This document shows positions 12,967 to 41,602 of a DNA stretch of 64,000 nt, in pieces. Source of the DNA: Rhodanobacter sp. C05 (lineage in GTDB: Bacteria; Pseudomonadota; Gammaproteobacteria; Xanthomonadales; Rhodanobacteraceae); assembly GCF_002001165.1 (NCBI RefSeq), contig NZ_MUNQ01000012.1, forward strand, positions 124,001-188,000, written 5' to 3'. The position numbers and the translations under genes are program-made. The notes beneath the pieces are model-generated. The model did not search any database. It saw nothing but the letters and a program-made list of their open reading frames with translations, and was not told the origin of the DNA. Every line of letters begins with the position of its first letter. Within the stretch, counting starts at the first letter, position 1.

Positions 12967-12996
12967 AAAAAAGCGCCGCCCCTCGCGGAACGGCGC
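12967..12996 (-). terminator. Intrinsic terminator after rtcB
   Basis: On the minus strand a 10-bp stem (two G-U pairs, GNRA-type loop GCGA) is followed by six T. It closes the slipin-rtcB transcription unit just before queA, so queA needs its own promoter. Confidence 0.88.
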
Positions 12997-13027
12997 CCAA
13001 CTCATGCAGACATGCGGATTTTTCCGC

Positions 13028-14248
13028 TCAGCCCTTGACGCACAACACCTGACGCAACGTGTGCACCACCTCGACCAGGTCGGACTGCGCAGCCATCACC
13101 GCGTCGATCGACTTGTACGCCGCCGGCGACTCGTCGATCACCGCCGCGTCCTTGCGGCATTCGACGTGCGCGGTGGCCTCGCGGTGCTGCGCCAGGGTGA
13201 TCTGCTGGCGCGCCGCGGTACGGCTCATCACGCGGCCGGCACCGTGGCTGCAGCTATGGAAGCTGTCCGGGTTGCCCTTGCCGCGCACGATGTAGCTGCA
13301 CGTGCCCATGCTGCCCGGGATGATGCCCAGCTCGCCCTCGCGTGCGCTGACTGCGCCCTTGCGGGTGACCAGCAGTGATTCGCCATGATGCGTCTCGCGT
13401 TGCACGTAGTTGTGATGGCAGTTCACCGCCAGCTTCTCCAGCTGGAACTTCGGCAAGCGGTGGCGCATGTCCGCCAACACCCGCGCCATCATCGCCTCGC
13501 GGTTGGCGCGGGCGTAATCCTGCGCCCAGGACACCGCCTCCACATAATCGTCGAAAAGCGGCTCGCCCTCCATGAAGAAGGCCAGATCCCTGTCCGGCAG
13601 ATGGAAACCGAGCACGCGATGCGCCAGTTCTTCGCGGGCACGCTCGATGAAGTAGCTGCCGATCAGGTTGCCGGTTCCGCGCGAGCCCGAGTGCAGCATC
13701 ACCCACACGGCATCCGATTCATCCAGGCAAACCTCGATGAAGTGGTTACCGCCACCGAGCGTGCCGATCTGCTTGTCCAGCTTGTCGGTGCGGATCTTGC
13801 GATGCTTGGCCTTGATCGCATCCAGCCGCGCGACCAGTCCCGATTCGGCCAGGCACGTTTCGATGCTGTCCGGCAGTTGACGATGGTCGCCGCCGCGACC
13901 GTTGCCGACCGGCACGCCGCGCTCGATGCTTGAGCGCAGTTGCGCCAGGTTGTCCGGCAGGTCGTTCGCGCGCAGCGTGGTGCGCACCGCGGCCATGCCG
14001 CAGCCGATATCGACGCCGACCGCAGCAGGGATGATCGCGCCGCGCGTGGGCACCACCGAACCGACGGTGGCGCCCTTGCCCAGATGCACGTCCGGCATCA
14101 CCGCAACCCAAGGGCCGACGAACGGCAACGCGGCGATGTTGCGCAGTTGCTCCTTCGCGGAATCTTCCAGCGGCACGCCGTGCACCCAGCCCTTGATTGG
14201 CGTGGCACTGCCTTCGGCATGCAGCAATTCGTAGTTTGAGGTACTCAT
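13028..14248 (-). CDS. rtcB: RNA-splicing ligase RtcB
   Basis: RtcB is a GTP- and manganese-dependent ligase that joins RNA 2',3'-cyclic phosphate or 3'-phosphate ends to 5'-OH ends, repairing RNAs such as tRNAs cut by anticodon nucleases. The start at 14248 follows AAGGAAGG and gives 406 residues. Metal and guanylation motifs are intact: VDIGCGM (Cys83), GGGNHF, HSGSRG, NCHHNY and the nucleophile histidine in SHGAGR (His335). It lies 55 bp downstream of a slipin gene and upstream of a strong terminator. No rtcA or rtcR is present in the window, so it is not the E. coli-type rtcBA arrangement. Confidence 0.95.
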   Translation of the reverse strand: MSTSNYELLHAEGSATPIKGWVHGVPLEDSAKEQLRNIAALPFVGPWVAVMPDVHLGKGATVGSVVPTRGAIIPAAVGVDIGCGMAAVRTTLRANDLPDNLAQLRSSIERGVPVGNGRGGDHRQLPDSIETCLAESGLVARLDAIKAKHRKIRTDKLDKQIGTLGGGNHFIEVCLDESDAVWVMLHSGSRGTGNLIGSYFIERAREELAHRVLGFHLPDRDLAFFMEGEPLFDDYVEAVSWAQDYARANREAMMARVLADMRHRLPKFQLEKLAVNCHHNYVQRETHHGESLLVTRKGAVSAREGELGIIPGSMGTCSYIVRGKGNPDSFHSCSHGAGRVMSRTAARQQITLAQHREATAHVECRKDAAVIDESPAAYKSIDAVMAAQSDLVEVVHTLRQVLCVKG

Positions 14249-14303
14249 GTTTCCTTCCTTGCATTGGGATCGTGGCGATCGCGTCCGTGCGCTCGCCACA
14301 TGG

Positions 14304-15428
14304 TTACTGCTTCAGGCTGACCAACTGGTTCAGCACGCCGTCCAGGCCGCCGAACACGGTCAGCTTGTCGATCTTCTCGGTGACCTTCTCCAAAGCCTCC
14401 AGCTCCTTCAGGCGCATCAGCGTCGGGCTCTCCTCGATCAGGCGCGCGGTGTTGAGCAGCGAACGCGTGGCGTTCGCCTCCTCGCGCCGGCGGATCACGT
14501 TGGCCTGGGCTGCCTTTTCTGCCTGCACCACGCTGTTGAGGATCTCCTTCATCTCGCCCGGCAGGATCACGTCCTTCACACCGACACCGAGCACCTCCAG
14601 GCCCAGTTCGCTGACGCGGCCACGCACATACGCGAAGATGTCCGCATCCAGCGACGCCTTGTCACCCAGCAACTCGTCCAGCGTCTTGCCGGACACCGCC
14701 TTGCGCAGGCCGTACTGCAGCTCGCGATAGAGGTAGTCGCCGTACTTGGCCACCTTGGTACGCGCGGCGACCGGGTCGGTCACGCGCAGGCTGGCGGCCA
14801 GGTTCACGCGCAGACTCACCTTGTCGCGGGTCAGCAGTTCCTGACCCGACACCTCCAGCGACTGCACGCGCAGTTCGATCACCTCGGCCGCCACGTTCTT
14901 CTGGAAATTCCAGAACGCGTAGGCACCCGGGGCCAGCGTGCGGACCAGCTTGTTGTCGACGAACAACAGGCCCGCCGACTCCACCGGCACGTCCACAGTT
15001 ACCGCGACCTTGCCGAGCACGCCAAGCTGGCGCAGACGGCTGGCCACACGTGCATCGATTTCCAGCGTGTCGACCAGCGACACCGCCTGCACCTCGATCG
15101 GCACCAGACCCTTCCAGTACAGCTTGCGGGTACCCGGCGCGAGCACGTCCTCCAGTTTGCCGTTCTTCAGCACCAGACCGACCTGCTGCGTGCCGATGTC
15201 GGCCACGGTGAAGCAATCGGCCAGCTCGCCGTCCAACTGCGCCATCAGCACCTCGGCATCCGCACCGACGTACTCCGGCTTTGCCAGGTTGTGCACGCTG
15301 ACGGCCATGCGGCCGCGCGGGTCGATGTAGCGGTACACGCCCGCTGACAATACCTGCTGGAAACGACGGTTGCGATACAGCAAGCCGCGCTCGCCGTCGC
15401 CGATCACGACTTGCTTGATCCAGAACAT
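14304..15428 (-). CDS. Slipin (SPFH/band-7 domain protein) linked to rtcB
   Basis: The 374-residue protein starts at the ATG at 15428 behind AGGAG. An SPFH/stomatin-type domain occupies about residues 110-300 (VPIEVQAVSLVDTLEIDARV through LEVLGVGVKDVILPGEMKEIL), followed by a charged helical tail (EKAAQANVIRRREEANATRSLL) suited to oligomerisation. There is no clear N-terminal membrane helix. Three copies of a short G-L-L...N...L-x-P-G-x-Y unit occur at about 14-35, 83-105 and 152-173. The gene lies directly before rtcB and downstream of tRNA-like RNAs; the family usually forms membrane-associated scaffolds, and a role in RNA repair is inferred only from context. Confidence 0.88.
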   Translation of the reverse strand: MFWIKQVVIGDGERGLLYRNRRFQQVLSAGVYRYIDPRGRMAVSVHNLAKPEYVGADAEVLMAQLDGELADCFTVADIGTQQVGLVLKNGKLEDVLAPGTRKLYWKGLVPIEVQAVSLVDTLEIDARVASRLRQLGVLGKVAVTVDVPVESAGLLFVDNKLVRTLAPGAYAFWNFQKNVAAEVIELRVQSLEVSGQELLTRDKVSLRVNLAASLRVTDPVAARTKVAKYGDYLYRELQYGLRKAVSGKTLDELLGDKASLDADIFAYVRGRVSELGLEVLGVGVKDVILPGEMKEILNSVVQAEKAAQANVIRRREEANATRSLLNTARLIEESPTLMRLKELEALEKVTEKIDKLTVFGGLDGVLNQLVSLKQ

Positions 15429-15810
15429 GGTGATACTCCTTTTATTAATCCTGGTTTGATCCGTCAATTAATCCGGATGCACCGCCGGATCATTACGATG
15501 CTCTTCGTCCATTCAGATAATCGGGCCGCAAAAGACCCTCCCTCGCGGGATAATCAGCGCACTCGAAACCCGATGCATCGATTCAAACAAATAAGGCGGA
15601 AACGCCTCTTGACGATAATGGGGCGAAGCCAGCGTGCCTTGATAGGGAATCGAATATCTCGCTGAATACCTGCACTGCTCCGCAAGGCACTCCTCTCGAC
15701 ACCCGATCGCCCGACTTCGGGACGTAGGCCCGGCCCCGCCACCGCTGCGTTGCGTGACACACCGCCATCCTGGCTCGCATGTCGCGCACCGCACGAAGCG
15801 TTTCCTGGTC

Positions 15811-15824
15811 GGAACTTTCGTTCC
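15811..15824 (-). other. GAAA-tetraloop hairpin between the tRNA-like RNAs and the slipin gene
   Basis: On the minus strand a 5-bp stem (GGAAC/GTTCC) is closed by GAAA, a stable RNA tetraloop. It lies about 20 nt downstream of the tRNA-like pair. The remaining roughly 380 bp before the slipin start contains no recognisable gene and no clear promoter. Confidence 0.5.
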
Positions 15825-15845
15825 TGGTCATGACGTGACAGGTCA

Positions 15846-15918
15846 TGGTTTGGAGCGGGAGTCGAACCCGCGACACTCGGATTAACAGTCCGATGCTCTA
15901 CCCATCTGAGCTATCCAG
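15846..15918 (-). tRNA. tRNA-Asn(GUU)-like RNA with shortened acceptor stem
   Basis: Reading the minus strand, 73 nt fold as a tRNA: D arm GCTC/GAGC, anticodon stem TCGGA/TCCGA with loop CTGTTAA (anticodon GTT, Asn), variable GTGTC, T arm GCGGG/CCCGC with TTCGACT, and a 3' CCA. The acceptor strands are only CTGGA and TCCAA, giving four pairs plus a C-A mismatch instead of seven pairs. Its first base follows the CCA of the neighbouring RNA with no spacer. It may be called tRNA-Asn by a scanner, but ordinary aminoacylation looks doubtful. Confidence 0.7.
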
Positions 15919-15991
15919 TGGTTGACGTACCGGATTCGAACCGGCGACCTGCAGGCTGCGAACCTGCTGCTCTACCGCTGAGCTAACGTCA
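15919..15991 (-). tRNA. tRNA-like RNA, anticodon CGC (Ala-type), with 6-bp acceptor stem
   Basis: These 73 nt on the minus strand fold as a tRNA: acceptor TGACGT/ACGTCA (6 bp), D arm GCTC/GAGC, anticodon stem GCAGG/CCTGC with loop TTCGCAG (anticodon CGC, Ala-type), T arm GCCGG/CCGGT with TTCGAAT, discriminator A and CCA. It lacks the G3-U70 pair that marks tRNA-Ala, and the stem is one pair short. The CCA touches the next RNA directly, so release of a 3' end would need processing. It lies upstream of slipin and rtcB in the transcription direction. Confidence 0.65.
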
Positions 15992-16311
15992 TCGTTGTGG
16001 AACACCGCCTTCCAGGCCCCGGCATACGCCGCCGGCAAAGCCGTGCGCACCGGATGGGCTTGAGCCCATACCGCTGGAGCCTGTTGGTTCGATGCTCCTG
16101 ATTGCCGGCTGCTGCCAACCGGCAATAGATGTGGGCATTGATGCCCGATCTGTTGGTACCCGTTTCCCGCACAGCCCGCGTCGAAGCACCGGGACGCAGC
16201 GCACTTGCGCCTGTCGCAGCCGCGCCCCTGCTTCAGTTGCGAACAACCGGATGCTTCAGGGCGAAACGAATTCCGCAAAATTGGTTCGATACATGGGTAT
16301 CCCTTGCAAAC
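15992..16311 (-). ncRNA. Structured non-coding leader upstream of the tRNA-like RNAs
   Basis: No credible protein gene is present. Four hairpins are packed almost without gaps: 16051-16073 (core ATGGGCT/AGCCCAT), 16076-16098 (GGAGC/GCTCC), 16101-16126 (ATTGCCGG/CCGGCAAT) and 16127-16151 (GGGCAT/ATGCCC with outer AGAT/ATCT). A 6-bp stem closed by a UUCG loop on the minus strand lies at 16234-16249. Such density suggests a structured RNA transcribed toward the tRNA-like pair. No good promoter match was found, so the 5' end is unknown. Confidence 0.45.
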
Positions 16312-16354
16312 GCCAAAAACAAAACGCCCCCGGGTGTGGCGACCCGAGGGCGTT
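16312..16354 (-). terminator. Intrinsic terminator upstream of the tRNA-like/slipin/rtcB unit
   Basis: AACGCCC and CGGGT pair with ACCCG and GGGCGTT around a GTGGCG loop. On the minus strand the stem is followed by TTTTGTTTTTGG. It should stop transcripts arriving from the response regulator gene about 260 bp upstream, insulating the RNA-repair unit. Confidence 0.8.
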
Positions 16355-16365
16355 CGCGTTGCCTC

Positions 16366-16390
16366 GGGAGATCGGGGTGACCGATCTCCC
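16366..16390. repeat. Perfect 10-bp inverted repeat
   Basis: GGGAGATCGG and CCGATCTCCC flank a 5-base centre GGTGA. There is no T tract on either side, so it is not a classical terminator; it could be an operator or an RNA hairpin. Apart from this and another inverted repeat (CAAGCATT/AATGCTTG at 16588-16608), the stretch up to 16617 shows no gene. Confidence 0.6.
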
Positions 16391-16617
16391 AAAGGGATCA
16401 GTCGATTATTGGAAAACGGTTGCCAAGTCGTGCCTTTCATCGCGCATGAACAGGCCTGCATCGCGGCCTTTGCGCGATGTATATGGCTTGTTCAAGTTGA
16501 CGGGGCAGAAGGACATGGAAAATTTCTTCATCGGATTATCGCCGGGATGGCGAAGGCGCGAACAATACGCGCATTGATTATCTGGTGCAAGCATTTTATT
16601 AATGCTTGGCAAAATTC

Positions 16618-41279: not shown

Positions 41280-41602
41280 GATTTCGCCTAAATAGCGGCG
41301 TCAGTGCGGTTGTTCAACATCGAATTCGCCTGCAACTTGCCGCCTCGCCGGCGTACCGGCTATAATTTGGGAGTTTTGCTGACCTGACACGACCGTTTTG
41401 ACGATCGTTGCAGCGCAAAGCGAACCGGGATTGTAACCGCCCCGCGGTACAACACCCAACCAACGCCACACACGTATCGGCACCGCCTTCGGGGTGCCGC
41501 GGCCTGCCCACCATTGAACCGGGCAAGTCGCGGTCGAAGCCGGGGATGCGTGGAGGTCCCAACCCCCAGGCCTTTCAAAGGCCCATGCAAGGAGTTACAC
41601 CC
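41280..41602 (+). promoter_or_regulatory. map-rpsB intergenic region with rpsB promoter and leader
   Basis: This 323-bp stretch has no gene. A promoter is visible: TTGCCG (41337-41342), an 18-bp spacer and a perfect TATAAT (41361-41366). The transcript would carry a leader of about 230 nt before rpsB, which ends in a strong AAGGAG site. In enterobacteria S2 represses its own operon through the leader; a similar role here is inference. Confidence 0.65.

Follow-up and report, generated by a model that had tools for sequence, protein, structure and literature searches.

A conserved RNA with two tRNA mimics beside a slipin gene, usually with rtcB, in Rhodanobacter and its relatives

It has reportedly been announced, by Burroughs and Aravind in NAR in 2016, that RNA-repair systems include a scaffold protein of the SPFH/Band-7 class together with a 'novel tRNA-like molecule'. 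That module would join an SPFH gene and a tRNA-like RNA in a context of RtcB, RtcA, RtcR and RlaP. The locus described here lies in a stretch of 64,000 nucleotides of Rhodanobacter sp. C05 (contig NZ_MUNQ01000012.1, positions 124,001 to 188,000; 'the window' below), where, on the minus strand, a structured leader and two tandem tRNA-like RNAs (TLR1 and TLR2) precede a gene for slipin, an SPFH/Band-7 protein, and rtcB. It shows the same linkage of SPFH gene and TLR, and repair enzymes are linked to it: RtcB here, and RtcR, RtcA and RlaP at relatives. As the kind of system was reportedly already announced in 2016, no novelty is claimed for the kind or for the RNA itself; the TLR–slipin arrangement is not described among the open-literature matches listed. 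The attenuator, the drifting anticodon, the folded body of the RNA and the RtcB-independent core are apparently new.

Other systems share parts with this locus. The rsr-yrlBA-rtcBA operon of Salmonella resembles it in combining rtcB with a noncoding RNA that carries a tRNA-like domain and with an RNA-binding partner protein (PMC7790460). It differs in that the partner is Rsr (Ro60), not an SPFH protein, and in that the window holds only a weak, 23-bit match to YrlA, with no rtcA or rtcR seen at the locus. That match, to the YrlA Y RNA (RF02553, 23.4 bits against a gathering score of 69), spans the TLR1–TLR2 junction and was rejected. The closest documented attenuator case found is PA5471.1-armZ of Pseudomonas aeruginosa, in which a leader open reading frame (ORF) and terminators precede the RtcB-like armZ, which is induced by ribosome-targeting drugs and whose expression rises with stalled ribosomes; the available passages of that paper mention no tRNA-like RNA or slipin (PMC12057347). 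In Anabaena, TrcR represses a tRNA operon, rtcB and a slipin gene, and the repression is relieved by translation inhibitors (PMC10272220); these are the same parts, but at separate loci under a repressor, unlike the unit in the window.

The TLR–slipin pair and its spread

The core of the unit consists of the following features.
15920..15992, minus strand: TLR1, tRNA-like RNA 1, with a 5–6 bp acceptor and a variable anticodon-arm loop (ARAGORN and Rfam).
15848..15917, minus strand: TLR2, tRNA-like RNA 2, with a 4-bp acceptor and a 7-nt hypervariable anticodon loop (Rfam).
14307..15428, minus strand: slipin (SPFH/Band-7) gene (PF01145), with three tandem N-terminal beta units.
13031..14248, minus strand: rtcB, RNA ligase (PF01139, 421 bits; RtcB matches in the PDB).

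Relatives of the slipin were taken from a single homologue scan, which gave 207, and the best 80 of the 207 were kept; nearly all belong to the Lysobacterales, the nearest named ones to Rhodanobacter and Frateuria, and a few are labelled otherwise, such as L051, a Verrucomicrobia metagenome-assembled genome. Loci with less than 1000 nt upstream (L012, L071, L083 and L087) were left out of the upstream alignment, which comprises 76 relatives and the window, 77 regions in all. At least one TLR could be parsed in every one of the 77 regions and both in 69, with T-arms 356–768 nt before slipin; TLR1 was unparsed in L014, L034, L047, L072, L074, L075 and L086, and TLR2 in L010, where ARAGORN calls two. 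rtcB lies within the fetched flank at 76 of the 80 loci; of the other four, L042 stops at a contig edge. An earlier note on this DNA had proposed that the structured leader, tandem tRNA-like RNAs, slipin and rtcB belong together, and the comparison of relatives, which carry TLRs at the same place, bears this out: the parts and their order are conserved.

A full-length slipin orthologue is present in 23 of 147 genomes of the family, the window's own included (a family tally of 145 counts general SPFH proteins, not slipin orthologues), and in four of the 11 genomes of the genus, all four with rtcB. Across the phylum, slipin at E 1e-30 or better was found in 23 of 398 genomes, 17 of them outside the order. 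At least two T-arms, 65–77 nt apart, lie upstream in 15 of these 17 slipins of other orders (38–49% identical), the remaining two loci having a single T-arm in one case and starting at a contig edge in the other; RtcB is within the fetched stretch in nine of the 17. With R1, a model of the tRNA pair, 23 of 30 loci not used to train it score at least 65 bits at slipin. In the window genome it gives 155.7 bits at the true site and up to 86 bits at ordinary tandem tRNA genes, so that R1 alone is no proof of membership.

The RNA-repair setting supposed in the earlier note fits what adjoins some relatives, namely rtcR, rtcA and RlaP, an RNA-repair nucleotidyltransferase. Six loci were confirmed to have RtcR (PF06956) upstream, several of them with a TGGCAC-type sigma54-like site. 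One locus carries rtcB-rtcA-RlaP after slipin, and L152 combines three tandem tRNA-like RNAs, rather than two, with rtcR, rtcB, rtcA and RlaP. Four of the 23 slipin-bearing family genomes have RtcR at another genome position. For the window, the statement that the unit lacks rtcA and rtcR stands in that neither was seen at the locus and rtcR was not found anywhere in the genome; for rtcA it reaches no further than the locus, a genome-wide search having been made for rtcR only. In E. coli, slipin-RlaP (RlaP by Pfam) lies between yjbD and lysC, and the query stretch is covered to 80% or more in 1617 of 5426 genomes of the species; E. coli L172 and Citrobacter L173 (with an annotated nucleotidyltransferase) keep slipin with only one T-arm pattern upstream. 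In a record from Subdoligranulum (Clostridia), slipin-rtcB follows two T-arm-like hairpins with a spacing of only 24 nt, where Rfam gives no tRNA match; by its layout this is a different arrangement.

RtcB was not found genome-wide in three of the 23 slipin-bearing family genomes (G142, 78% complete, G048 and G032), and seven of eight genomes checked at phylum distance gave no genome-wide match, the eighth having only a distant one. In such RtcB-less genomes T-arm pairs precede slipin in all but one contig-edge case. On this comparison the constant pair is TLR and slipin; RtcB is usual but dispensable, because some genomes keep TLR and slipin with no RtcB found. The suggestion that the TLRs are substrates of RtcB is thus not supported as a general account.

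Between slipin and rtcB, L034, L045 and L074 have an extra gene of about 270–300 aa (RKDMYKVIVERPRRGG...), the L045 copy without a Pfam match, and gaps of 869–975 nt also occur in L038, L040, L044, L054, L067, L079 and L084. The 640-nt gap of L053 holds repeat-like sequence, and in L141 a small probable treble-clef zinc protein (zf_Tbcl) lies between the two genes, 1174–1554 after the slipin start.

The tRNA mimics and the drifting triplet of TLR2

TLR1 is called by ARAGORN as Ala-CGC and scores 56.8 bits against the Rfam tRNA model; TLR2 has no ARAGORN call and scores 55.3 bits, at 15917-15851, over model positions 4–67 only, because only four acceptor pairs exist. Scores of 55–57 bits speak for ordinary tRNA genes that lie upstream by chance, a reading to which we give almost no credence. 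Besides the TLRs, the window genome carries 48 tRNA genes for 43 anticodons, Ala-CGC and two Asn-GTT among them; there is thus no decoding gap for TLR1 or TLR2 to fill. Neither the 7-bp acceptor stem nor the conserved anticodon identity of a decoding tRNA was found: TLR2 forms acceptor pairs 4:69 to 7:66 in all 76 parsed cases, with positions 1–3 paired in 14–18%; TLR1 is paired at positions 2–7 in 84–100% of 69 and at position 1:72 in 25%; and the TLR2 triplets are unlike in 14 of 19 comparable sister pairs. The 4-bp acceptor and the drifting triplets contradict the possibility, allowed for in the earlier note, that both RNAs are ordinary tRNAs. Among distant loci Rfam aligns TLR2 as 4–67 or 5–66 in L151, L153, L156 and L175, whereas in L146 and L174 the alignment spans the whole model, so that the 4-bp acceptor holds for the window's group, not everywhere.

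There is equally little to suggest decay. Covariation was counted on diversity-picked subsets of the 77 regions, of either 48 or 26 sequences; in 48, at least one double change is seen in 24 of the 34 TLR stem pairs. The T-loop and the D-loop GG are nearly invariant, partly by construction: a T-loop with TTC[AG]A is a condition of the parser, and a D-loop with GG is favoured by it. Nor are the arms of the window's TLRs copied from its own tRNAs, the nearest of which have 5 and 4 differences in 17. Given covarying stems and nearly invariant loops, the TLRs are, as far as comparison of their sequences goes, maintained tRNA mimics with no decoding role, not pseudogenes.

The anticodon-like loop of TLR2 has 7 nt in 69 of 76 cases, and of these 62 keep Y32, 52 U33 and 62 R37, with all three in 42. 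Among the same 69 loci there are 28 distinct triplets. By parsimony on the slipin tree (69 taxa) positions 34, 35 and 36 need 32, 22 and 23 steps, against a median of 11 and a maximum of 21 for 44 four-fold slipin sites in the same taxa. The 24 cherries of the tree, less five with unequal loop length and three with a four-fold divergence above 0.30, leave 16 sister pairs, in which divergence is 0.458 for the triplet, 0.344 for the loop flanks, 0.147 for four-fold sites and 0.046 for the rest of TLR2. Four-fold sites are constrained themselves in a GC-rich genome, which limits the comparison, and T-loop N59 is equally fast (32 steps in 76 taxa; divergence 0.375), which weighs against selection on the triplet. 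These two points leave a lack of constraint as what the rates show: by them, the identity of the TLR2 triplet is unconstrained, and positive selection is not demonstrated. A kissing partner for the loop was also sought and rejected, as no site in the 1250-nt region pairs with it beyond shuffles; one apparent excess (9–11 of 69) was the loop matched against itself.

It could be supposed that TLR2 is a bait or decoy: anticodon nucleases would be offered its anticodon-like loop, which would diversify under an arms race, the cut RNA being resealed by RtcB or sacrificed. The retained 7-nt loop with its largely kept Y32, U33 and R37, the triplet's outpacing of four-fold sites and the want of a pairing partner would all agree with this. 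On the other hand, N59, an ordinary unconstrained position, is as fast; real anticodons make up 53 of the 69 triplets, no significant excess over the null of 49.6 (P 0.11), and A34 and stop triplets occur among the others; and about half of the TLR1 loops are tetraloops (36 of 69). YrlA fragments of Salmonella were not detected when tRNAs were cut (PMC7790460). We regard the bait as possible, though rather doubtful.

Leader, candidate attenuator and folded RNA

Upstream of TLR1 the transcript would pass through a leader with the following features.
16562..16590, minus strand: conserved sigma70-like promoter TTGCAC-17-TATTGT (pattern in 65 of 69 relatives, 1.8 in shuffles; aligned for 26).
16406..16516, minus strand: conserved leader ORF of 36 codons (33–54 codons in relatives by first ATG).
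16366..16390, minus strand: hairpin P1 (GGAGATCGG/CCGATCTCC) after the leader ORF (99.6% of cells paired, two double-changed pairs; 26 relatives).
16343..16368, minus strand: antiterminator-like alternative helix CCCGAGG/CCTCGGG (99.4% of cells paired).
16322..16355, minus strand: terminator hairpin, candidate internal attenuator (93.5% of cells paired, three pairs changed on both sides).

The promoter pattern sits about 190–235 nt before P1 in relatives; a general, stricter promoter scan does not list the site at 16590-16562. The leader ORF was examined in the 74 of the 77 regions with a recognisable P1, and the promoter in 69 of those 74. The ATG stands at the modal alignment column in all 74, and in 73 its frame closes 5–24 nt short of P1, whereas stop codons in the two remaining frames are scattered; GC by codon position is 0.66/0.53/0.76. 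P1 and the terminator jointly have 95.9% of cells paired and five double-changed pairs, the alternative helix would use the terminator's 5' arm, and folding energies are −18.0 (P1), −12.5 (alternative helix) and −24.6 kcal/mol (terminator). An ORF that ends just before alternative hairpins and a terminator has the anatomy of a leader-peptide attenuator. The hairpin at 16355-16322 appears to be internal and looks like such an attenuator. The earlier note had placed one unit between two intrinsic terminators; the single conserved unit stands, but the upstream hairpin is not its 5' boundary because a conserved promoter and leader ORF lie upstream. Of the 77 regions of the window's group two have a sigma54-like pattern; of 30 additional loci eight do, in one case downstream of the T-arms, these counts being without shuffle control.

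Beyond the attenuator the following parts of the RNA body can be recognized.
15993..16262, minus strand: 5' conserved domain, defined by alignment only.
15598..15805, minus strand: 3' structured domain, closed by a long-range helix of 15805-15795 with 15608-15598.

An element GGTGCGC...GCGTATGCC just before TLR1 was found in 73 of the 77 regions, in 11 of 30 further loci (five outside the order) and in four of 882 control windows. The helix that closes the 3' domain has 11 pairs, each retained by 22 or more of the 26 sequences, and nine of the 11 have double changes in at least one; the 3' strand of this helix also accounts for most of 15608-15593, the third terminator-like site. The scan for such terminator-like hairpins found seven sites, against 4.2 in shuffles. 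The Rfam scan of the unit found no family except tRNA at gathering score. The product would be a structured noncoding RNA with two tRNA mimics, its length of about 670 nt and its ends being estimates.

All of this might be no more than a cis-acting leader, in which the TLRs are sites for RNase P/Z or cleavage sensors that control the slipin-rtcB mRNA, with no role in trans. The TLRs do lie in one conserved leader behind promoter, ORF and attenuator, and neither the interval from the terminator to TLR1 nor the final 320 nt ahead of slipin holds a second promoter of the same pattern (0 of 77, 1.9 in shuffles); with only 1.9 expected, a conserved promoter of that pattern is excluded, not every promoter. 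TLR1 also keeps its 5–6 bp acceptor, followed by [N]CCA in 44 of 69. Against this, the long conserved RNA, together with a TLR2 that has a 4-bp acceptor and is followed by CCA in 13 of 76, exceeds what a processing site needs, and the TLR–slipin linkage persists under different promoters and without rtcB. A purely cis-acting role is, in our estimation, unlikely.

The minus-strand order is response regulator, promoter, leader ORF, hairpins, the RNA with TLR1 and TLR2, slipin, rtcB, terminator, and putative queA and tgt. The flanks are as follows.
17229-16618, minus strand: response regulator (Pfam).
12971..12998, minus strand: terminator after rtcB (terminator-like hairpin scan).
Beyond that terminator, minus strand: putative queA and tgt ORFs, assigned by eye.
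Within the fetched stretch the response regulator occurs at 15 of the 80 loci and tgt at eight, all near relatives, so that the neighbourhood differs elsewhere. At window 41449-41563, plus strand, there is a t44 RNA (RF00127, 61.3 bits).

Slipin and a proposed ribonucleoprotein scaffold

The vault particle consists of major vault protein and vault RNA, and the present locus resembles it in SPFH-like and helical fold matches and in having an RNA partner. The slipin of the window has 374 aa, with an AF2 model at pLDDT 85.5; three N-terminal stretches self-align (z 5.5–6.3 against shuffles) and form three five-stranded units in the model. The best fold matches are stomatin, HflK, QmcA, prohibitin and erlin, followed by major vault protein, whose match by VIA covers residues 144-342 only, omitting residues 1-143, and is outscored by the stomatin type. 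The slipin, with its 374 aa and three beta units, differs from the vault protein in this respect too. The earlier note had thought of a membrane scaffold made by the slipin, which is not supported: there is no clear transmembrane helix, the KD19 maximum being 1.34 in the window's protein and at least 1.6 in 10 of 76 aligned proteins (the window's among the 76), with a highest value of 1.91. Phage copies of the slipin were searched for without a match, and the PADLOC anti-phage defence models match neither slipin nor RtcB. A vault-like assembly of the slipin would be an attractive, if speculative, reading. Its fullest form, a vault-like TLR–slipin particle in which TLR2 is a hypervariable bait, the attenuator senses translation stress from cut tRNAs, RtcB repairs them and an arms race drives the drift, we consider improbable.

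The reading that we favour, with a confidence slightly above even, is that TLR RNA and slipin together make a ribonucleoprotein scaffold that helps to deal with damaged tRNA, under attenuator control and with RtcB optional. The unit would yield the structured RNA of about 670 nt and slipin, its constant genomic partner, and the two together would form the scaffold, in parallel with the Rsr–Y RNA pair of other rtcB operons; RtcB would be its usual yet optional enzyme. In the Lysobacterales the transcript would run from the sigma70-type promoter through the leader ORF to P1, the antiterminator-like helix and the terminator, a layout from which expression would probably rise when translation is disturbed; RtcR and sigma54-like sites would stand in for the leader attenuator in several Proteobacteria outside that order. 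Binding of RNA to protein, like the role in tRNA damage, is something that we infer. Several points weigh against this scheme. The leader peptides are poorly conserved in sequence, which leaves frame, stop position and composition to carry the claim that the ORF is coding. In the alternative helix five of the seven pairs never vary and one covaries, by a double change in two sequences; as it overlaps P1 by only 2–3 nt, the two may not compete, and we infer the three-way switch. The full-length slipin model reaches a pTM of only 0.60, and a model of the N-terminal part by itself failed, at a pLDDT of 51. Finally, the neighbours in the RtcB-less L146, L151, L153 and L154 look, by eye, metabolic or housekeeping and unrelated, which makes a repair role there a guess.

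Since TLR and slipin can be separated from RtcB, the hypothesis moves from a ligase substrate to the RNA part of a scaffold, and since the mimics are kept while their triplets change, they would serve a purpose other than reading the genetic code. The leader-peptide attenuator suggests a second switch for RNA repair where RtcR is absent, for which armZ provides a precedent. The locus represents a widespread case: an RNA that has tRNA elbows but whose anticodon runs free and which, in the window's group, lacks a normal acceptor end stands constantly beside an SPFH protein, in some genomes with no RtcB at all.

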